Notes: a model not told the origin generated them from the letters alone. A stretch of 64,000 nucleotides of DNA from Vulcanimicrobiota bacterium (GCA_019637395.1 JAHBVR010000009.1:124001-188000); one strand, 5' to 3'; shown: positions 8,420 through 18,519, counted from the first letter of the stretch. Numbers and translations: made by a program.

Positions 8420-8850
8420 TCTCGCCAGGGAAAGAGAAAGCTCGCCACCCAGAAGAGGCCGGCACTGAGCAGAGCAAAGCTCCACCAGGTAACCAATAAG
8501 GTCTGGCCGATCATCCAGGGACTGTAGCCGCTCAAGAGCAACTGCAGGGTCAGAGCCAGAGCGCTCAGCACCCCGCCCAGCACCAGCCGCTGGCTGGGGC
8601 TGAGCACCGGACGGCGCTCCACCACGTAGCCGGCCAGACAACCCACCAGCAAGGGGGGGAGCAGCATGCTGGGCAGCATAGCCCCGCAGGGCACCGAGCC
8701 CCACAAACCGGCCCAGCAGCCGGTCAGACTGGCGCCGGTCAAACCGTAGCGCCAGGCCGCCAGCAGCACCAGGCCGAGACTGAGGGCCGCGTAATGCGCT
8801 GAACAGAAGATGGCCAGCAGGGGAAAAGCGAGGGTCAACAGTCCGCTCAC
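8413..8850 (-). CDS. mreD: MreD-like rod-shape membrane protein
   Basis: The product is a very hydrophobic protein of 145 residues with about five membrane segments. Sequence identity to MreD is not obvious by eye, since the family is poorly conserved. The call rests on length, hydrophobicity and its exact position between mreC and the PBP2 gene. It contains a GxLxGxxAGLxG-like run (TGASLTGCWAGLWG) resembling the MreD/ECF transporter-like fold. It overlaps both neighbours (4 and 7 bases), which implies translational coupling. Confidence 0.8.
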   Translation of the reverse strand: MSGLLTLAFPLLAIFCSAHYAALSLGLVLLAAWRYGLTGASLTGCWAGLWGSVPCGAMLPSMLLPPLLVGCLAGYVVERRPVLSPSQRLVLGGVLSALALTLQLLLSGYSPWMIGQTLLVTWWSFALLSAGLFWVASFLFPWREW

Positions 8851-10703
8851 GGCAGCACCATGACCTCGGAGACGTCATCCAGTTTTACGTAAGGGATAAT
8901 CTGGGCTGACCAAAAGCTGGTCTCGTTACTACGGTGGACTTGCCGCACGGTGCCGATAGGCAGGCCCCGCGGAAACTGTCCGTCTTGACCACTGGTCACC
9001 ACCGGGTCCCCATCTTTGACGCCGGCGTCAGGATCGATGTAGTTCATGGTCATGACTCCGATGCCCTTACCCTCAATCACACCGCCCGCTTTGCGATTGG
9101 CGATCAGACCGTGCAGCTTGGAGGAGGGGCTCAGACAAAGACTGACGCGACAAGAGTGGTCATCGACCTGCACCACTCTTCCCAAAAGCCCTTGTTCGGC
9201 CATAACCAGGTTGCCGCGCTTGATACCCTCCGCGCTGCCCACATTCAAACGAACTCCCGAGAGCCACTGATGGGGATCTCGTCCCACCACCCGGGCCAGC
9301 GTGCCGCCTTCCAGGCCTCTAAGATTCATCTCGCGTTTGGCCAGCCACCGCCACAGACGCTGATTTTCCGAACGCAGACGCTGCATCTGGCGCTTTTCTT
9401 CTTGGTTGAGAGTGCGGCTGGCGGCCGGTTGTTTTTGGCCGCTGGCCAGGCCGGCGTTCAGCGCCGCGCTGAATCCGCCGAACCAGGGGTCTGGACCGCC
9501 CAGACCCATAGCGTTGGCCGAGGCGGCCGAGACAAACAGGCTGATGGCCATCAAAGCCGCGGCCGCGCTCCAGCCCAGGGAGGTTCGCTGCATTACCAGG
9601 TTTTTGGGAGCAAAGTCGTCCTTGGGCTTGGGCAACTGCGAAAAGAGGGCTTTGCGCAGCACCGGCGACTTGAGGATCAACTGCAGACCCTTGGAGGTGC
9701 AGTCGCCCGGCTTTTCCGGCTGGCATACCGTCAGTCCGGTGGACTGGCGTAAAGCCTGCGAGAAGCCGTAGAGCAGGGTGCTGCCGCCGGTCAGATGGAT
9801 ACCCTGCTCCTGGATGTCATCCACCCAGGCCACCGGAATCTCCGCCAGAAACTGGCGGGCCAGGTGCACCCACTGGGCGTGGAACGGCTCGACGATCGGC
9901 CACAGCTCGTTGGCCCGCAGAGTGACGCGCAGGGGCGCTCCGCTCTCCAGATGACGTCCACTTACGGGCAGTTCGCTTTCCGAGCTGCATTGGGCCAGCT
10001 CGATTTTGAGGCGTTCCGCGTCCTGGCGATGGATCAGCAACTGATAGGTGCGCCGCACATACTCCTGGATGGACTCGTCCACCTGGCCGCCGGCCAGTTC
10101 TCCGCGGCGTACGGCCAGGCACGAACCCAGAGCAATGACGCCGACTTCGCAACGGCCCGCGCCGATGTGCAAAACCATGTGGCAGCGCGGCCGCAGCACA
10201 TCCAGGCCGGCACCGATGGCCGAGGCCAGCAGTTCGCTGGTGAGAGCGATTTGGCGGGCCCCCACGCTGCGCCCCAGGGCTTCCCAGGTTTCGCGCTCCA
10301 GAGCGGTGGGGTCGGCCCCCACCGCCAGCAACAGGCGTGGCGCCGTGCCCCAGTGGCCGCGCTTGAGAGCTTGCTCGAGCAACAATTTGGCGCCGTGCGG
10401 ATCGTGCACCGCCCCGCCTTTCATAGGCTGGAAGATCGAGACGCCTTCCGGCTCCTTGCCTTCCAGGTCGCGCGCCCCCTCGCCCAGAGCCACGCAGCGC
10501 TGGCGATGATTGAAGGCCAGCAGAGCCGGGAAGGCCTGAGCCTTGCTCATACCGGTGACGGAAACCTGGGATCCACCCACGGAGACGGCCGCATCGAAGC
10601 CAGGAGCTTCCAGCCAGGTGCGCACACCCGCCCAGGAAAATCGCTGGCTCCAACTGGGAGTGACCGTTAAGCCCCTTCCCTCCATGCTCTCACTGTACAG
10701 CAT
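8847..10703 (-). CDS. MreB-like actin domain fused to MreC
   Basis: This is one continuous 618-residue reading frame. Residues about 36-345 are actin-like: QPMKGG (92-97) matches the MreB RPMKDG segment, SAIGAGL (161-167) matches AAAIGAGL, then LHIGAGRCEVGVIALG, YVRRTYQLLI and the adenosine motif HLTGG (303-307). Residues 374-398 form a membrane span. Residues 430-460 are coiled-coil. Residues 470-617 are a MreC beta domain (VNVGSxxGIxxG-like segment, then TSGQDGQFPRGLPIGTV). MreB and MreC are normally separate proteins on the two sides of this membrane step. In the actin part, the phosphate-1 Asp is Ser (VSVGG) and the phosphate-2 Asp is His, so ATPase activity is doubtful. The Glu at 157 that corresponds to the catalytic Glu is present. 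GGAAGG-type sequence precedes the ATG. Confidence 0.9.
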   Translation of the reverse strand: MLYSESMEGRGLTVTPSWSQRFSWAGVRTWLEAPGFDAAVSVGGSQVSVTGMSKAQAFPALLAFNHRQRCVALGEGARDLEGKEPEGVSIFQPMKGGAVHDPHGAKLLLEQALKRGHWGTAPRLLLAVGADPTALERETWEALGRSVGARQIALTSELLASAIGAGLDVLRPRCHMVLHIGAGRCEVGVIALGSCLAVRRGELAGGQVDESIQEYVRRTYQLLIHRQDAERLKIELAQCSSESELPVSGRHLESGAPLRVTLRANELWPIVEPFHAQWVHLARQFLAEIPVAWVDDIQEQGIHLTGGSTLLYGFSQALRQSTGLTVCQPEKPGDCTSKGLQLILKSPVLRKALFSQLPKPKDDFAPKNLVMQRTSLGWSAAAALMAISLFVSAASANAMGLGGPDPWFGGFSAALNAGLASGQKQPAASRTLNQEEKRQMQRLRSENQRLWRWLAKREMNLRGLEGGTLARVVGRDPHQWLSGVRLNVGSAEGIKRGNLVMAEQGLLGRVVQVDDHSCRVSLCLSPSSKLHGLIANRKAGGVIEGKGIGVMTMNYIDPDAGVKDGDPVVTSGQDGQFPRGLPIGTVRQVHRSNETSFWSAQIIPYVKLDDVSEVMVLP

Positions 10704-10760: not shown

Positions 10761-11723
10761 CTACGGCTCTAAGGCGAGCTCGGATCGAATCCGTAGCGCC
10801 CCTAGAACTCCACATTCGATTGGTCGCGGGGATCGCTGCACGGGCAGATCCACCTGCTCCTTGAGATAGGCTTCCAGGCCTTGCAAATAGGCCGCCCCGC
10901 CGGTGAGCATCAGGCCCTGCTGCAAAACGGATTCGGCCAGCAAAGGCGGCATTTGATCGAGCACACTGCGAATCAGTTCGAGCAGCCGTTGCAGAGGTTC
11001 GAGCAGCGACTGACCGAGCGAATTCATGGGCACGTCGCGATAGATGGGCAGGCCACTGGTCAGTTCGCGGCCGCGCACCTCCAGACTCTGGTCCGGCCAG
11101 TGCTCGGCCCAGCAGCTAGTCTGGTGCTTGAGCAGGCGGGCGGTGGCCTGGCTGACTTCCAGCCCGTGCTCCTGGTAAAGACAGCGCTGCAGGGCGACTT
11201 CCAGATCGTCGCCGCCCCAGCGAATGGAGCGGCGCAGTACTACGTCGGCGGCCACCAGAGCCATTTCACTGGTGGTGGCGCCAATGTCGACCACGGCCAC
11301 GGCCGGCTCGCCGGAGGTGCTGCCCCAGGCCACCGCCACCGGCATCTGCACGATGCGAGTATTCAGAAAGCCAAGATCTTTGAGCAACTCAGCCCACTGT
11401 TTGCGTTCCAGCGGGGAGGCCACGCTGGGCAATACCAGCCGCGCCGACGGTCGCGACCAGGCACGCATTCCCTGACGGCGCAGCATCTGGCGCAGTTGCT
11501 CCTGAACTGCCCCGGGGGCAGCCAGATGAGCCTGGGAAACCGGTTGAAACACCTGGATCCTATCAGGAGCTCTTTGCATGATAGGGACGGCCACCTGGCC
11601 CACGGCCACGGCCTGGGGCAAACTCCAGCAGTTGGCCACCAGCGAGGGTTCACAGAGAACCTCGCCCTTGCCGGCCACGGCCACTCGGGTTTGATATGAT
11701 CCTACGTCTAAGGCGATCAGCAT
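10761..11723 (-). CDS. mreB: Divergent MreB-like actin homologue
   Basis: The product has 320 residues and heads the shape operon. Actin-fold motifs are phosphate-1 ALDVGSYQTRVAV (Asp6 kept), phosphate-2 VVDIGATTSEMAL (Asp146 kept), the RWGGDDLE segment and the adenosine motif LTGGAAYLQG. The catalytic-Glu segment, normally EEPMAAAIGAG, reads VQMPVAVAWGS, so the Glu is lost. It lacks the usual MreB membrane-loop conservation and is far from the canonical sequence, somewhere between MreB and PilM/FtsA-like actins. Start 11723 has an excellent AGGAGG six bases upstream. An earlier ATG 30 bases before has none. The gap to the fusion gene is 57 bases. Confidence 0.85.
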   Translation of the reverse strand: MLIALDVGSYQTRVAVAGKGEVLCEPSLVANCWSLPQAVAVGQVAVPIMQRAPDRIQVFQPVSQAHLAAPGAVQEQLRQMLRRQGMRAWSRPSARLVLPSVASPLERKQWAELLKDLGFLNTRIVQMPVAVAWGSTSGEPAVAVVDIGATTSEMALVAADVVLRRSIRWGGDDLEVALQRCLYQEHGLEVSQATARLLKHQTSCWAEHWPDQSLEVRGRELTSGLPIYRDVPMNSLGQSLLEPLQRLLELIRSVLDQMPPLLAESVLQQGLMLTGGAAYLQGLEAYLKEQVDLPVQRSPRPIECGVLGALRIRSELALEP

Positions 11724-11876
11724 GGGATCCTCCTGCCGTTGAATTTCATTCAAAGGCAGGAGCTCCCTCTCGACTTAAGAACAAAAGTTCGACGAACACC
11801 TGCTTTAAACATGAGCAGTTGCAGTCAGGATGCGGGCTGAGGCGGCGTGAAATTTTCTATCGTACGCGCTGAATCA

Positions 11877-12311
11877 TCACCCCGAAAGGCTCTCCAACTT
11901 CAAAATTGCCCGGCGCAGATCATCGGGAATGGGCGCGCTTTTGCCGGCGGCGTAGTCATAGAAGACGGATACCGAACTGCCTTTGGCCACATAGTCCTGT
12001 TGCTGATGGCTGTAGATGCGGTAGAGCTGGACAAAACTGCTTGTGCCCAGCCTGGAGATACCGATCTCCGTGCGAATCCGGTCCGGGTAGTGGATGGGCT
12101 TGAGGAAATCGCACTGGGTGCTGGCCAGAATCGGTCCGAAACCGTGACCCTCCGGCTCGGGAAAGTGCAGCCCTAAACGCTCGAACTGAGCGATGCGCGC
12201 GTTCTCGAAATAACGGAAGTAAATGGTATTATTGACGTGTCCGAGTTTATCTTGCTCCCCCCAGGCAACTGCTTGCTCGAGTCGAACCGGGTATTGGGTC
12301 TCAAACTCCAA
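11877..12311 (-). CDS. Hotdog-fold acyl-CoA thioesterase (4HBT/YbgC-like)
   Basis: The product has 144 residues of the 4-hydroxybenzoyl-CoA thioesterase family, which hydrolyses acyl-CoA thioesters. The family active-site segment is WGEQDKLGHVNNTIYFRYFENAR, cited here by its core DKLGHVNN with Asp at the expected position. The start is TTG, inside the end of the GHKL ATPase gene (11-base overlap), with AGGAAG upstream. It is probably the last gene of the 17.7-11.9 kb operon. The 153 bases to mreB contain no convincing terminator. YbgC-type proteins sit with the Tol-Pal system in proteobacteria, but there is no such neighbour here. Confidence 0.85.
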   Translation of the reverse strand: MEFETQYPVRLEQAVAWGEQDKLGHVNNTIYFRYFENARIAQFERLGLHFPEPEGHGFGPILASTQCDFLKPIHYPDRIRTEIGISRLGTSSFVQLYRIYSHQQQDYVAKGSSVSVFYDYAAGKSAPIPDDLRRAILKLESLSG

Positions 12312-13905
12312 CTTCGTCTTCTTCCTGCAGGTAGGCTTCCAGCAGCTTGGTGCAAGTCTTCTCGTCGATCCCGTCGTCGCTGACGATGGCCGAAGCCAGC
12401 AGATAGGGCGCTTCCTTACGGAATTCCGGCTTCAGGCGAAAATGCGGCTCGATCAAGGGATCGGCCACATTTAAAATGACGGTAGTGTTCTTGTTCCAAC
12501 CAAAGAAACGCTCAAAAATGCCCTTGGGGGCAATCTTGTCGAAGCGAATCACCTCATCGGGCTTGTCGCAGGCCAGGTAGAGGCGGTCGTGGACGGTGGA
12601 GTTGGGGTAGTTGAAATTGCCGGCCACCACCTTACGGTAGGGGCTGCCAGCCCGGTGCAGGATGCGCATGGCCGCCTGAATCATTTTTTCTTGAGATTCG
12701 GGCAACGCGGTCAGTAACGTGGGACTGGCGTAAACTTCGTTGGCACGAGTCATGGGCGCGTTGCCTTTGAGCTTGTCGAGCAACGTGCCCAGGCCCTTGT
12801 CTTTCTCGGGATTCCAGCGAATCACCAGGCGGCCGTCGTCGACCAGGCGCTGCACTACAGCGTTGGTATTCTCTTCATAAAGCAACTCTTTATGGCGCTT
12901 GACCTCGGCCTTGAGTTCACGAATGCTGGCCTTGCGGGGTCCCAAAGTAGGAATGATCTGCTGGTTTTCCAGTTCGGGCGGCAGCTTGGCCACGTGAAAA
13001 GCCAGATAGCCCATGGTCTCGTCGTCGGTATGAGCCTGGGCGGCGGCAAAAAGCGCCGGACGCAGCTTCTTCTCGACGCACTCCTTGAGCAAAGCCATGG
13101 CTTTATCGTAATTCTTGTCCTTGATAATGTTGTCGCGGGTCAGCGTGTGCTCCAGATAGCGGGAGCGAATCTTGAAGCTGACCCCGGGAATGATCACATC
13201 TTCCGCCTCAAAGAGAGTCAGGCCGCGATTGTAGAAACCATAGAAAGGGCGATCCGAACCGCTGGGAGCGGCTGAAATATAGGTTCCCTGACCCTCCAGA
13301 TTGACGGCCAGCTTGTGGGGCAGGTCGAACTGCTCGTTGATCAGCTCTCCATCCACATAGACTTCCGCCTCGGCGTGCTTACACCACTTCTTCAGAGTTT
13401 TACGCGACTCTTCCCGATAATTCTCATTCTCTTTGGGAGTCAGTTCCTTGATCCACTTGATCTGAGTGCCTTCCACCGGTCGGGGCAACACCAGGCGGTC
13501 AAAAGTGCGATCCTCTTTAAAGTAGATGCGCCAGTATTCGCCGTCCTTACCAGTATCCACAAAGACCGCCTTGGGTTTCAAGGCGAAGATGGACACAAAA
13601 CCGATGCCGAACTTGCCGATCTTGGTGAAATCGTCTTCCTTGGAGGACGAGAACAAACGGGTCAACTTGGTGTCGATGACTTCGCGCGTCATACCCTCGC
13701 CGGTGTCGTTGATGTGCAGCACGAAGACGCCCTTTTCGTTGTCCTTGTTGGGCGTGTACTCAAAATCGATGTCCACCCGCCCCGACCCGGCGTCGATGCT
13801 GTTTTGCACCAGTTCGCGCAAGAAGGCGAACTGGTCGGAGAATTGTTGGACAAGATTGTCCAGGGTGTCGCCGGCTTCAATGGCAATGTTCGGATCGCTG
13901 GCCAT
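12301..13905 (-). CDS. GHKL (Hsp90-like) ATPase of unknown function
   Basis: The product has 534 residues. The N-terminal 200 residues are a GHKL ATP-binding domain as in Hsp90, MutL and MORC: N-box ELVQNSIDA (31-39), G1 box NDTGEGM (66-72) and G2 box GKFGIGF (97-103). Like Hsp90, a middle domain follows. It lacks the C-terminal MEEVD or HtpG dimerisation signatures I would look for, and it is about 90 residues shorter than HtpG. A region near 300-420 (LPPELENQ, LKAEVKRHKELLYEE) is partly coiled-coil. The start is supported by AGGAGAG inside the end of the AAA+ gene, one base apart. It belongs to a five-gene operon and its job is unknown. Confidence 0.85.
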   Translation of the reverse strand: MASDPNIAIEAGDTLDNLVQQFSDQFAFLRELVQNSIDAGSGRVDIDFEYTPNKDNEKGVFVLHINDTGEGMTREVIDTKLTRLFSSSKEDDFTKIGKFGIGFVSIFALKPKAVFVDTGKDGEYWRIYFKEDRTFDRLVLPRPVEGTQIKWIKELTPKENENYREESRKTLKKWCKHAEAEVYVDGELINEQFDLPHKLAVNLEGQGTYISAAPSGSDRPFYGFYNRGLTLFEAEDVIIPGVSFKIRSRYLEHTLTRDNIIKDKNYDKAMALLKECVEKKLRPALFAAAQAHTDDETMGYLAFHVAKLPPELENQQIIPTLGPRKASIRELKAEVKRHKELLYEENTNAVVQRLVDDGRLVIRWNPEKDKGLGTLLDKLKGNAPMTRANEVYASPTLLTALPESQEKMIQAAMRILHRAGSPYRKVVAGNFNYPNSTVHDRLYLACDKPDEVIRFDKIAPKGIFERFFGWNKNTTVILNVADPLIEPHFRLKPEFRKEAPYLLASAIVSDDGIDEKTCTKLLEAYLQEEDEVGV

Positions 13906-13906
13906 T

Positions 13907-15565
13907 CTACTTCTCTCCTAAAGTTTGTAGCGCCGCCTTCTGGGCGGACAGATTGAGCACAATTTCCTTGACGCGGGTCTGGAACTGGTCCGCCTGATTT
14001 TGCTCCTCGGCGGCCATTTCAAACTCGCTGAACCGTTTCATCATGTCGCGAATATCCTGATAGGTCATGGGCTTGGCCAGCTCGCGCAGAATGCGCTGGC
14101 GTTCGGCAAAGCCCACCTGGTAGTATTCCGGCGGCGGCTCCACGTCCTGGACGCGGGTCAGAATATTTTGGCAAATAGCCTCCACATTGCGCCCCGAAAA
14201 CTCCGAATCGATGCACAACCGCCCGATCTTGAGCCACTCTTCATCGCTTAGCTTGAGCATGTCGATGAAGTCTTTGAGCTTCTTGTCACGCATCAACTCC
14301 ACAAAATCCTCGGCGCTATTGGGCCCCTTGATTTTGTGGGGGTCCTGGGAAATGCGGGACAAGGTGGCTTCGTCCATGTTCATGTAGTTGGCGTCGCACA
14401 TCAGGAACCACTTACCGTTCTTGGGGATGAGCGTGCCGTCAAAGATACCGAAGCTGGCTCCGAGAATGTTGGACTCTTCCGAGCGCATGCCCGGGTCGCT
14501 ACGGGCCGCAAAAGCGGTGTCGATATCGGGCCAGTAGACTCCCACCACGCCGTTGAAGCCGTGTACCTGCTCTTTGAAAATCTTGATCAACTGGGTAGCG
14601 CTGGCGTTCTGGAAGGAAGAAGCCCAGTCGGTGCGCCGAATCACCAGGAAGCGCGCCGCCACCCCACGATCCTTGCAATACTTGAGGAAATAGTTACCAA
14701 TGGCATGAGCGGTAATGGTCTTGCCGCAACCGGGCGAGCCTTGTCCAAAGAGCACCGGATTGAGCTTCTTGGGGTTGCGCCCCACCTCGAAGTCGTAACC
14801 GGCCACGTCGCGGGCCAGGCGCAGGCCGGCGGCCAGATACTCCTGATTGCCGACCACGTCCTCGGGCCAGACCGGTAGCAGTTCGGCCGGTTCTTCTTCC
14901 TTGGCGGTGGTGGAAGGCTCCAGGCCTCGATAACCGCGCCCGCACACTTCCACCGGCAGCTTCTCGAGGGCGCGCCGGTGGCGCTCAAATTCTACGTCCT
15001 CAACCTGGCTCTTGACCGCATTGCCTTTCAGTTGAAAGAAAGCCGAGGCCACTTCCAGCAACTGGTCGGGCGCGGTGATACTACGGGCGGGGTCGGGATG
15101 ATGCTTGTGAAAGTCCAAAAAGGACGTGAGCTCTTGCAAGCAAGTCTGCATCAGGGTATTGCCCTCGTAGTCGCGGATCTGCTTGACCCAGGGTGACTTC
15201 ATCGAGCCCCGCACTTCGGGGGCCTTGCCCAGATGGGTTACGCAACTGGCGGTGGCGTGCTCGGCCGCGATGTAGGCGGCATAAAGATTGCAGAAAGACC
15301 AGTCGATGGGGTCCAGGTTGTTTTTAAAGCCAAAACCGGAACTGTCGCGATCGGCCGCGATGCGATGGGACAGGGCTTTCTGAATTTCCAAAATGAGGGA
15401 GCCATAGCGCTCCATAATGTCGAGCAAATTGAGATGCTGATGGGTATAGCCATAGGGCCCGCTGACCAGGCTGGCGAGACGTTCCGGCACCATGCTGTTC
15501 TTGAGCAGCGAGCGAACGATGGGGAATTCTTGCTGGAGGTCTTCATCGGTAATGGTAAGGTTCAT
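13907..15565 (-). CDS. AAA+ ATPase of unknown function
   Basis: The product has 552 residues. An unrecognised helical N-terminal region (1-230) precedes an AAA+ core: Walker A GQGSPGCGKT (274-283), Walker B-like VVGVYWPDID (340-349) and a sensor 1 segment WFLMCDAN (386-393) followed by LSRI (402-405). The Walker B acidic pair is atypical (DID rather than DE). The gene starts on TGATG, sharing one base with the upstream stop, so it is translationally coupled. It was likely co-evolved with the GHKL ATPase that follows one base later. Substrate and partner are unknown. Confidence 0.85.
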   Translation of the reverse strand: MNLTITDEDLQQEFPIVRSLLKNSMVPERLASLVSGPYGYTHQHLNLLDIMERYGSLILEIQKALSHRIAADRDSSGFGFKNNLDPIDWSFCNLYAAYIAAEHATASCVTHLGKAPEVRGSMKSPWVKQIRDYEGNTLMQTCLQELTSFLDFHKHHPDPARSITAPDQLLEVASAFFQLKGNAVKSQVEDVEFERHRRALEKLPVEVCGRGYRGLEPSTTAKEEEPAELLPVWPEDVVGNQEYLAAGLRLARDVAGYDFEVGRNPKKLNPVLFGQGSPGCGKTITAHAIGNYFLKYCKDRGVAARFLVIRRTDWASSFQNASATQLIKIFKEQVHGFNGVVGVYWPDIDTAFAARSDPGMRSEESNILGASFGIFDGTLIPKNGKWFLMCDANYMNMDEATLSRISQDPHKIKGPNSAEDFVELMRDKKLKDFIDMLKLSDEEWLKIGRLCIDSEFSGRNVEAICQNILTRVQDVEPPPEYYQVGFAERQRILRELAKPMTYQDIRDMMKRFSEFEMAAEEQNQADQFQTRVKEIVLNLSAQKAALQTLGEK

Positions 15566-16629
15566 CAGATAGTATACACAATACAGCGCGCGTTGCGCTC
15601 GGCCAGGAGTTGTTGAAAAGGCTGGGCGATGGCTTTGGTGACACAGAACTTACGTTCTTTGAAAACGCGATAGCCCAATTTTTCGGCTCTTTCCAGAGCG
15701 AACTGCCTGGCATCCCCTTCGACGGTGTTGCGATAGAGCCGGGAAAAGGGGTCCGCCTGCAGGTCTTCTTTGGCGCTCGAGTTGATGACCACCCGTTCCA
15801 GCGGAAAGTTCAGGATGAAGTTGCCCGGATTTTGCTCCAGCAACTGGCGAACCTCGTCCGGCATGGTATCGGCTTCTTTGAACCAGAGAGGACCTACCCG
15901 TCCGCGCACGACTTCCTCCACCTTGATGCCCGGCACCTCGGAGAGCAAGATGAAGGCAAACTCGGCTTCGTCGGAATGGTAGCGGGAAATCACGTTACGG
16001 AAAGCCTCGGTGGCTTTCAAATCATCGCCCTGCATCTCGATCTGAGCTTTGTTCCAGCGCGAATCCTGATGTTGCAGCGTGATGGTGTAGCGCGTGAAAA
16101 CACCCTCGCCCGGGTCGTAGCGTTCGAAGATCGAGTAAAAAGAGGCCGTCTTGGTGACCAGATCGATCTTGCGCAGCTTCAACTCGTGGTGAATGCGCTT
16201 GGGCAAATCGCTTTTGTGGACGTCCCGCAGATACTGCAGGCGCCGGTGCAATTTGAAGGAGGCCTCGTCGGTGCGTGAATTGACCTCGGCCGTGTCGTTG
16301 CGAGCCAGAAAGCGGGGGGCCGCTTCCTTGTCGGCCAGCACTCGCCCGATATCCGGCTCAGACGGCAATCCGCAGCGAGGATTGATGCGGATCTCCGGGT
16401 CGATCCCCAGGTTACCGCTGGGAGACATGAGCCGATACAGATTATCCAGCCCGTTGGGATTGGGATAAAACTGATTGAGGCGCCCGCCTTTGATCAGCCT
16501 GCGCAAGAAATCCAAAAACTGATCGGCGTCCGCATCCCGCAACAGGATACGATACTGGGTGGGGTCAACGCCGTGGGTCAGAACTGGTTCGGGACGTTCA
16601 CGCTCATATTCAGGGGCGGGAATAGCCAT
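15565..16629 (-). CDS. Hypothetical protein in the two-ATPase operon
   Basis: The product has 354 residues and matches no family I recognise. It is a charged, soluble protein without a signal peptide or membrane segment. Notable stretches are DPTQYRILLRDADADQFLDF near the N-terminus and RYTITLQHQDSRW in the middle, compatible with an alpha/beta or beta-rich fold. Its start (TAATG) overlaps the stop of the coiled-coil gene, and its stop (TGATG) overlaps the start of the AAA+ gene. A stoichiometric complex of the operon's products is therefore plausible. Confidence 0.8.
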   Translation of the reverse strand: MAIPAPEYERERPEPVLTHGVDPTQYRILLRDADADQFLDFLRRLIKGGRLNQFYPNPNGLDNLYRLMSPSGNLGIDPEIRINPRCGLPSEPDIGRVLADKEAAPRFLARNDTAEVNSRTDEASFKLHRRLQYLRDVHKSDLPKRIHHELKLRKIDLVTKTASFYSIFERYDPGEGVFTRYTITLQHQDSRWNKAQIEMQGDDLKATEAFRNVISRYHSDEAEFAFILLSEVPGIKVEEVVRGRVGPLWFKEADTMPDEVRQLLEQNPGNFILNFPLERVVINSSAKEDLQADPFSRLYRNTVEGDARQFALERAEKLGYRVFKERKFCVTKAIAQPFQQLLAERNARCIVYTI

Positions 16630-17714
16630 TATTCACCCGGCAGTGCAGCTTGATGACTTCCCCCTCCACTCAGCTGTTCGCGGGCCATGCGCAGGGTCTC
16701 GTCCAGGCGTTTGTCCTGGATGGCGCGCTCGGCGGCCAGGTTCTGCTCGACCAGTTGCTGGGTGGTTTCGTCGTAGATGCGCATCTCGGAGGTGAGCTTC
16801 TCGACGTTGGAGGTCAGATAAAGACTGGTTTGCGAGGCCAACGTGGCCACTTTGTTGACGCTGGTCTTGAGCGAGGACATGGCTTTTTGCATGTCCATGG
16901 TGATTTCGCTGGCTTCGGTGGCGGTGGACAGCGAGGCCAGGTTGCCGCGCAGTTCGTCCAGGACCTCCTGGCCGGAATCATACATGTTCTGCATGTTATT
17001 GTGCAGATTGTTGAGTAGTTCCAGGAAGTTGTTGTTCATCTTGACGATGCTGTGGATGCGCTCGTCGGCGTTAGCGTAGAGGCGTAATTTACCGCCGTGC
17101 TCGCTGATCAGGCGGCGAACTTCATCGAGTTCCGTCTGCTTCTCGCGCTTGGCCACGGTATTTTCAGAGCCCATGGCATCGACCTCGGCATGAAGCTGCT
17201 TCTCGATCTCCTTGAGCTGGAGAATGTACTGAGCAGCTTTCTCCTTGTTCTGAGTGGCCATCAGCATCTTTTTGTTGAGGCGGGAGATATCCTGACGGAC
17301 ATTCTCGACTTCTGATTCCATGCGATCCAGAAAGCTGCCGACCTCACGCACGCGCGTTTCGGTGATCTGGATCTTCTCTTGCAGCAGCTCGGAAAGCGGG
17401 CGCTCGGGTAGCTTGGAGCGCAGCACCGGAATACGCTCGAGCAATCCGCGCATAGCCAGGCCGAATTTCTGGCGGTCCCCGCTGGCCGCCTCGCGCAGGC
17501 ATTCCCAGATGGGCTTTTGCTGGACCAGGTCCTCGCTCATCTCCTTGGCGATGGAGTCCTGGGTCTTCTTCAGGCTCTCCAGCTCGCCGATGCGCTCTTG
17601 CTGGCGGTCCAGTTCGGGCTTAAGAGCGGCCTGCAAAGTATCGCGGGAGGTATAGTCATCCGCATCATAGACGACCTGCCGCTGCATGATCGTCAACCGG
17701 TTTTCGTCCGCCAT
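16629..17714 (-). CDS. Coiled-coil protein, possibly TelA-like
   Basis: The product has 361 residues and is almost wholly predicted helical, with heptad-rich segments at about 35-65, 115-215 and 265-345. It has no signal peptide or membrane span. The final third (ATEASEITMDMQKA, then NVEKLTSEMRIYDETT) faintly recalls the toxic-anion-resistance TelA family, but I cannot confirm that by eye. It is the first gene of the operon, with GGAGG seven bases before the ATG. A scaffold or tether role for the downstream ATPases is inference only. Confidence 0.78.
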   Translation of the reverse strand: MADENRLTIMQRQVVYDADDYTSRDTLQAALKPELDRQQERIGELESLKKTQDSIAKEMSEDLVQQKPIWECLREAASGDRQKFGLAMRGLLERIPVLRSKLPERPLSELLQEKIQITETRVREVGSFLDRMESEVENVRQDISRLNKKMLMATQNKEKAAQYILQLKEIEKQLHAEVDAMGSENTVAKREKQTELDEVRRLISEHGGKLRLYANADERIHSIVKMNNNFLELLNNLHNNMQNMYDSGQEVLDELRGNLASLSTATEASEITMDMQKAMSSLKTSVNKVATLASQTSLYLTSNVEKLTSEMRIYDETTQQLVEQNLAAERAIQDKRLDETLRMAREQLSGGGSHQAALPGE

Positions 17715-17762
17715 CTAGGACCTCCCTTGGGAATTTCGGGTTTGCCGTAAGGTTCTTCTATC

Positions 17763-17785
17763 TCTCAGCGATTATCCTGCTGAGA
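17763..17785. other. Small inverted repeat between divergent operons
   Basis: TCTCAGC (17763-17769) and GCTGAGA (17779-17785) form a perfect 7-base-pair stem with a 9-base loop. It lies in the 106-base spacer between the divergent coiled-coil operon and the rluB-dnaG-rpoD operon. It could be an operator or a 5' leader hairpin. There is no T-run, so it is not an intrinsic terminator. Confidence 0.4.
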
Positions 17786-17820
17786 CAGGACGGGCGCCCA
17801 GGTACGCGGTAGTTTTCTCG

Positions 17821-18519
17821 GTGCAAGAAAGGGTGCAAAAATATCTGGCCCGCTGTGGAGTGGGCTCCAGACGGGCCTGCGAGAAGCTTATCGAAGAGGG
17901 CCGAGTGCGGATAAACACGCAGGTTGTGGAACTGGGTGCGTGTGTGGCGGACGGCGACGAAGTGCTGGTGGACGGCAAACCGGTGGTGCTGACCTCCGGC
18001 CTTCACTATTGGATGCTCAACAAGCCGGCCGGCTACATCACCACCGTTTCCGACCCGCAAGGGCGGGACACGGTCATGCGCCTGATGCCCAGACACCTGC
18101 CCCGCATTTTCCCGGTCGGCCGCCTGGACCTGGACTCGATGGGCCTGTTGCTTTTTACGAACGACGGCGACCTGGCTTTCAAGCTGCTGCACCCCTCCCA
18201 ACATGTATGGAAGACTTATCACTGCGGCCTGCGCGCCCGGCCTCCCGAGAACGTGTTGGCGCGATTGCGTGAGGGAGTGGAACTGGAAGACGGCCCGACC
18301 GCTCCCTGCCGCGTGCGCTGGGGGCGAGACTGCCTGGAGGTGGAACTGCGCGAAGGACGCAAACGCCAGGTGCGCCGGATGTTGTCGAGCGTGGGCTATC
18401 CCGTGCAATGGCTGCGCCGCGTGGCTTTTGGCCCGATTCTGCTGGGAGGCCTGCCGGAGGGCCAGTGCCGCGCCCTGAGCACGGCAGAAGTGGAGGCCCT
18501 GCGTGCCGAGAATCCCTGA
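17821..18519 (+). CDS. RluB/RsuA-type 23S/16S rRNA pseudouridine synthase
   Basis: The product has 232 residues. It has an N-terminal S4 RNA-binding domain (VQKYLARCGVGSRR, then INTQVVELG) and a catalytic domain with the GRLDLDSMGLLLFTNDGD signature, whose first Asp is the nucleophile. The C-terminal EGRKRQVRRM motif is typical of RluB/RsuA/RluE/RluF. The start codon is GTG at 17821. No better upstream start was seen. The gene overlaps dnaG by 17 bases, so it begins the macromolecular-synthesis operon. Which rRNA position it modifies cannot be told. Confidence 0.92.
   Translation: MQERVQKYLARCGVGSRRACEKLIEEGRVRINTQVVELGACVADGDEVLVDGKPVVLTSGLHYWMLNKPAGYITTVSDPQGRDTVMRLMPRHLPRIFPVGRLDLDSMGLLLFTNDGDLAFKLLHPSQHVWKTYHCGLRARPPENVLARLREGVELEDGPTAPCRVRWGRDCLEVELREGRKRQVRRMLSSVGYPVQWLRRVAFGPILLGGLPEGQCRALSTAEVEALRAENP

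Follow-up and report, generated by a model that had tools for sequence, protein, structure and literature searches.

Four closely packed genes lie divergently from dnaG and rpoD in a genome of 7.66 Mb, and the question they raise is whether they form a single system and, if so, what that system does. The window – the whole stretch of DNA analysed – comprises 64,000 nt of a Vulcanimicrobiota bacterium (GCA_019637395.1 JAHBVR010000009.1:124001-188000), whose phylum appears as Eremiobacterota in our comparisons; coordinates count from the window start. All four genes are on the minus strand. The first encodes a coiled-coil protein (CC; 16629-17714, 361 aa) and is preceded by a ribosome-binding site, GGGAGGT; there follow an orphan soluble alpha/beta protein (UNK; 15565-16629, 354 aa), an AAA ATPase assigned to the classic clade, with a helical N-terminal domain of ~225 residues (AAA; 13907-15565, 552 aa), and an Hsp90/sacsin-like GHKL ATPase (GHKL; 12301-13905, 534 aa). 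An initial annotation had described the genes as overlapping by a base or lying one base apart, and this holds for every open reading frame and every junction: TAATG for CC/UNK and TGATG for UNK/AAA (one-base overlaps), then TAG-A-ATG for AAA/GHKL (a one-base gap).

Upstream, the divergent neighbors are rsuA-dnaG-rpoD (dnaG and rpoD named from reading the sequence). Downstream, the end of GHKL and a 4HBT thioesterase ORF (Pfam) overlap by 11 bases, and in the window's genus the same strand continues from the thioesterase into genes that read as actin-like/MreC. Within the window these are a 618-aa ORF (8847-10703), whose sequence reads as a fusion of an MreB/PilM-type, actin-like N-terminus to an MreC-like C-terminus, and an adjoining gene (10761-11753) that also reads as actin-like. 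The G+C content of positions 12001-18000 is 55-58%, compared with ~60-63% in much of the flanks; that of the rpoD region is also 58%. An Rfam search returned no RNA element at the gathering threshold, and promoter and terminator scans gave matches at about chance level.

If the four genes are a unit, they should be found together elsewhere, and they are. The order CC-UNK-AAA-GHKL recurs, at 35-45% identity, in Elusimicrobiota (L049, L055, L062, L068, L069 and L070) and in another Eremiobacterota family, to which order a same-class relative (L023) also conforms; the expectation that the genes travel together in distant genomes is thus borne out. Compared with the congener L014, dN/dS is 0.021-0.043 for the four genes, 0.044 for rpoD and 0.088 for dnaG; over both congeners (L014 and L016) the ranges are 0.02-0.06, 0.03-0.04 and 0.09-0.10, respectively, and against the more distant L017 the four genes give 0.045-0.16, with GHKL the least constrained – all values being approximate, as dS is high. 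These ratios indicate that the operon is under very strong purifying selection, comparable within the genus to that on rpoD. Because the gene order is repeated in another phylum, and because dN/dS against L014 and L016 is ~0.02-0.06, chance is excluded: the four-gene operon is real.

CC is the best-conserved member of the operon (97-98% identity to L014 and L016). Neither CC nor UNK matches a Pfam or NCBIfam family above chance, which for UNK agrees with its earlier description as unclassified, and PDB profile searches with each returned nothing significant. CC gives weak profile matches to SMC and Rad50, of a kind typical for any coiled coil. TelA (PF05816) was considered as an identity for CC and rejected: the window's own genome holds no match to the TelA profile, and the hhalign probability is below 1%. 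For UNK, the AlphaFold2 model (pLDDT 81.5) has a strand order compatible with a tunnelling fold (beta-beta-helix-helix-beta-beta), with weak structural matches to enzymes of that fold (the top one reaching Z 5.0 and covering 114 residues; Foldseek E 0.12); at Z of 5 or less these are too low to claim the fold. Matches of UNK to viral structures were not significant.

The third protein is more readily placed. Pfam AAA matches it above cutoff (7e-5), a PDB profile search finds NSF and p97, and its AlphaFold2 model (pLDDT 84) aligns across ~250 residues with Vps4, p97 and PAN (Z 19-20; for Vps4, Z 19.9 over 264 residues, rmsd 3.9); structure comparison also shows a resemblance to Msp1. Judged from the modelled fold, it is an unfoldase-type ATPase of the classic clade, built like Vps4 and p97. 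The N-terminal 225 residues are helical in the model and lie outside the region matched to Vps4, p97 and PAN. Walker A is intact (GSPGCGKT, residues 276-283, 14717-14740, minus strand; consensus across relatives GxPGCGKT), the sensor-1 Asn is conserved, as is an SGR motif in the sensor-2 region, and R404, conserved in an SRH-like region of the sequence alignment, is a candidate arginine finger. An aromatic residue at F318 (14612-14614, minus strand; Y in most relatives) would occupy pore loop 1, the equivalence to the Vps4 pore loop having been assigned manually.

Walker B, by comparison, is atypical: the canonical DExD reads PDID (residues 346-349, 14519-14530, minus strand). Both the helical N-terminus and the unusual Walker B had been noted at the outset, and the latter proves to be general, for the motif is (P/A)D(I/F)D in all 17 AAA sequences of the GHKL branch (alignment A15) and DD(V/I)D in a sister branch whose operons carry DUF6638 (see below). 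On manual alignment to the DELD of p97, the catalytic Glu is replaced by Asp in both branches, and the Mg-binding Asp is lost in the GHKL branch; because of this loss, AAA of the GHKL branch may be a slow ATPase or one that binds ATP and no more, the cycle then coming from GHKL. Four scan loci (L073-L076) gave AAA matches that were generic or too weak. On a contig titled Nanoarchaeota (L071:1415-3112) the AAA gene is present beside genes that read as LemA and TPM-domain proteins, and CC and UNK were not found in that genome; misbinning or transfer is suggested.

GHKL matches HATPase_c_3 (4e-12) and sacsin (7e-9) in Pfam, and a PDB profile search finds GRP94, HtpG and Hsp90; matches to MutL-, MORC- and topoisomerase VI-type GHKL proteins are weak. 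Thus, of the original label "Hsp90/MORC-like", the first half stands and the second does not. The N-box (E31-N35, 13801-13815), the G1 box DTGEG (residues 67-71, 13693-13707) and the G2 box GKFGIG (residues 97-102, 13600-13617) are all present on the minus strand, and the residues that define them – E31, N35, D67, G69, G71, G97, G100 and G102 – are invariant across 18 homologues. An invariant HTxxRD (HTLTRD in the window) resembles the Hsp90 middle-domain arginine loop; its R257 (13135-13137, minus strand) is a candidate catalytic arginine by comparison with Hsp90.

In many Myxococcota the arrangement is CC-UNK-GHKL followed by a protein of 1,000-1,700 aa (L157, L158, L161, L168) that belongs to no Pfam family. 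Its N-terminus aligns with GHKL (hhalign 96.8%, 248 columns), and the N-box Asn and glycine boxes are replaced: by sequence comparison it is a degenerate second GHKL (GHKL2). All five genes – CC, UNK, AAA, GHKL and GHKL2 – are consecutive in L023. The window's own genome holds two more GHKL-GHKL2 pairs on other contigs (L134:4475-9157 and L135:8534-13977), each GHKL paralogue being directly followed by a degenerate GHKL of 1,041 or 1,322 aa with no Pfam family. In two Elusimicrobiota loci (L055:13333-19544; L049:6692-12965) four more same-strand genes follow the operon: the first encodes an 889-924-aa protein, GHKL2-like by profile, and the later ones a 112-aa helical protein, a protein with weak kinase-like and WD40 matches, and a weakly kinase-like protein with a carbohydrate-binding-like end.

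Among 149 Eremiobacterota genomes, 13 carry CC and the same 13 carry UNK; they belong to 6 of 70 genera (hypergeometric test at genus level, 8e-9), although for one of the 13 (G020) the profile used to call CC had itself included that gene. AAA is found in these 13 and in a fourteenth, where AAA and GHKL are adjacent at a contig end that cuts off the remaining genes; GHKL is unlinked in several Eremiobacterota. Genome size among the phylum's carriers ranges from 3.7 to 8.4 Mb. The distribution is patchy, with the genes absent from sister genera, which means that they are acquired or lost as a set. When 84,980 species were scanned, relatives of AAA at ~40% identity turned up in Elusimicrobiota and Myxococcota. 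Nannocystaceae and relatives have AAA apart from CC-UNK, which lie elsewhere in the same genomes, and of 282 Myxococcota genomes all eight with AAA hold UNK, against 35 of 282 overall (p = 3e-8, uncorrected for phylogeny; four AAA candidates scored per genome). That the genes co-occur even when unlinked argues more strongly than anything else for a shared function. With the same four candidates scored per genome, many Myxococcota with CC-UNK-GHKL-GHKL2 gave no AAA, and judged from these AAA may be dispensable to the system. The Myxococcota search also returned a locus (L163:2069-7744) in which a patatin-like phospholipase (Pfam 2.5e-23) takes the expected place of CC ahead of UNK-AAA-GHKL. In Nannocystaceae and relatives (L108, L113, L114, L170) CC-UNK adjoin what reads as the E1 gene of 2-oxoglutarate dehydrogenase, followed in several by E2 and lipoamide dehydrogenase: a stable core-genome position.

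A related operon came to light in plasmid records, where tblastn with AAA matched only operons of Vibrio and rhizobia annotated hypothetical, hypothetical, ATP-binding and DUF6638 (for example Vibrio vulnificus FORC36_RS26800-RS26785 and Sinorhizobium meliloti LZK74_29000-28975). Like the window operon it runs coiled-coil, soluble protein, AAA, fourth gene; it differs in having DUF6638 (PF20343) rather than GHKL in fourth position and DDxD rather than (P/A)DxD in Walker B. The AAA proteins of the two are homologous (hhalign 99.6%, 361 columns), as, remotely, are UNK and the sister soluble protein (95.3%, 187 columns, with the Eremiobacterota locus L025 left out). Homology between CC and the proteobacterial coiled-coil was not demonstrable, and the notion that DUF6638 is a hidden GHKL was rejected, the two families proving unrelated. 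The DUF6638 Pfam model has no match in the window's own genome (a search run without a positive control). In Vibrio, the gene directly after an operon of this type (L171:8629-12090) is on the second replicon and is annotated mfd, for transcription-repair coupling factor. In the open-access literature the function of the sister operon is not described, the one mention being of DUF2333.

L025 links the branches. Its UNK (8e-15) and AAA (5e-58) match the GHKL branch, its fourth gene resembles DUF6638 (93%), and it has no GHKL match. The L025 CC had entered the first profile by position only, so that its strong score was circular: with a profile lacking it no CC signal is seen in L025, and the UNK and AAA matches persist. 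Since the linking locus has a DUF6638-like gene and no GHKL, the fourth position can be held by either, and this exchange suggests that it is modular. The system as first delimited therefore holds in its four-gene order and fails in its extent, given GHKL2 in many relatives and the DUF6638 sister operon.

What, then, might the proteins do? A classic-clade AAA, an Hsp90-type clamp and two conserved partners are together best fitted by one machine for remodelling or assembling protein complexes, and our preferred reading – held tentatively, at a little under an even chance – is that the operon encodes a single cytosolic ATP-driven machine of this type. An AAA ring of Vps4/p97 type would engage a client through its pore aromatic, GHKL would act on that client as an Hsp90-like ATP-gated clamp, and UNK and CC would be the obligate adaptor and scaffold, joining AAA to GHKL and choosing the client; in the GHKL branch, AAA hydrolysing slowly or only binding ATP would leave GHKL to drive the cycle. 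Ring formation, a physical complex and chaperone-type activity are what we infer, the interaction from gene context.

Other readings were weighed against this one. That the operon remodels DNA or chromosomes by means of a MORC/MutL-like DNA clamp (GHKL), an SMC-like bridge (CC) and a loader or unloader (AAA) is unlikely: it draws on the membership of MutL, MORC and topoisomerase VI among GHKL proteins, on the weak profile matches of GHKL and CC (the latter such as any coiled coil gives) and on the proximity of dnaG and rpoD in the host family, yet GHKL matches sacsin and Hsp90 best, AAA belongs to a clade that threads proteins, and the operon is without helicase, nuclease or methylase. In prokaryotic MORC neighborhoods a superfamily II helicase is present in ~70% (PMC2292703). 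We give slightly less credence to regulated protein disposal or membrane-protein extraction, in which AAA would unfold proteins for a separate protease or pull them from membranes as Msp1 and p97 do, with GHKL as a holdase. Here the similarity of AAA to Msp1, p97 and PAN and its retained pore aromatic are set against a degenerate Walker B unlike that of active unfoldases, sequences with no apparent membrane anchor, and the lack of any Pfam protease family in the set.

A lineage-specific role in cell structure, such as building the envelope or cytoskeleton of bacteria that are social or have large genomes, seems less probable again: the thioesterase and actin-like/MreC-reading genes downstream in the window's genus and the genome sizes of the phylum's carriers would suit it, but the MreB/MreC-like neighbors are not common to L017 or Elusimicrobiota, and the core has no conserved envelope component. 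Most improbable is anti-phage defence, which the initial annotation had listed first among possible roles of a two-ATPase machine; the unrecognised two-ATPase operon is supported from that proposal, the defence role disfavoured. A multi-gene operon with two ATPases is compatible with defence, and GHKL has a weak match in PADLOC, confined to the GHKL stretch of TmtA. Selection is nevertheless on a par with rpoD; the flanks are core genes, namely rsuA-dnaG-rpoD for the host family and, for Nannocystaceae, the gene resembling 2-oxoglutarate dehydrogenase; neither IMG/VR nor 50,697 phage records contain a match to UNK, nor plasmid records one to CC; no effector is visible; and in PADLOC there is no significant match for CC, UNK or AAA (AAA-domain matches being weak), none for five genes near the operon, and no described system that matches the gene set.

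Returning to the protein-remodelling machine, a broader version of it is possible but doubtful: a widespread bacterial protein-assembly machine made of a UNK and coiled-coil core, an AAA ring with degenerate Walker B, and an exchangeable GHKL (often with a catalytically dead paralogue) or DUF6638, being the functional counterpart of Hsp90-R2TP by independent origin. Two of the four core proteins fall outside described families, and no known system has such a composition; conservation across phyla, with slow evolution like that of a sigma factor, suggests that this unnamed operon serves an overlooked basic cell process. The lineages concerned are Eremiobacterota, Elusimicrobiota and Myxococcota, and since the sister form occurs in genetically tractable rhizobia and Vibrio, function is testable now through the sister operon.

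As initially claimed, the set corresponds to no named system in Pfam, NCBIfam or PADLOC, and no published description was found in the open-access literature: what is new is the gene system, the ATPase domains being of known kinds. With classic AAA ATPases (Vps4, Msp1, p97/Cdc48, PAN) the window AAA shares the core fold, Walker A, the position of the pore-loop aromatic and the sensor-1 Asn, and it differs in the replaced Walker B DExD, another helical N-domain and the SGR of the sensor-2 region. GHKL, like HtpG/Hsp90 and sacsin-type proteins, has an N-terminal nucleotide domain with all motifs, but scores only 33.7 bits against the curated HtpG model (cutoff 371) and so is no full-length HtpG. 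MORC/paraMORC restriction operons likewise place a GHKL ATPase in a multi-gene operon; they carry helicases, nucleases and methylases (PMC2292703), none of which is among the four genes or conserved alongside them in the loci read. Although it is eukaryotic, uses an AAA protein of another clade and is invoked here with no claim of membership or of adaptor homology, Hsp90 with R2TP (RuvBL1/2, RPAP3, PIH1D1) would appear to be the closest functional analogy: an AAA-family ATPase and an Hsp90-type ATPase that, with two adaptors, act on one client (PMC9406135, PMC5974087), much as the window operon pairs its two ATPases with two partners.
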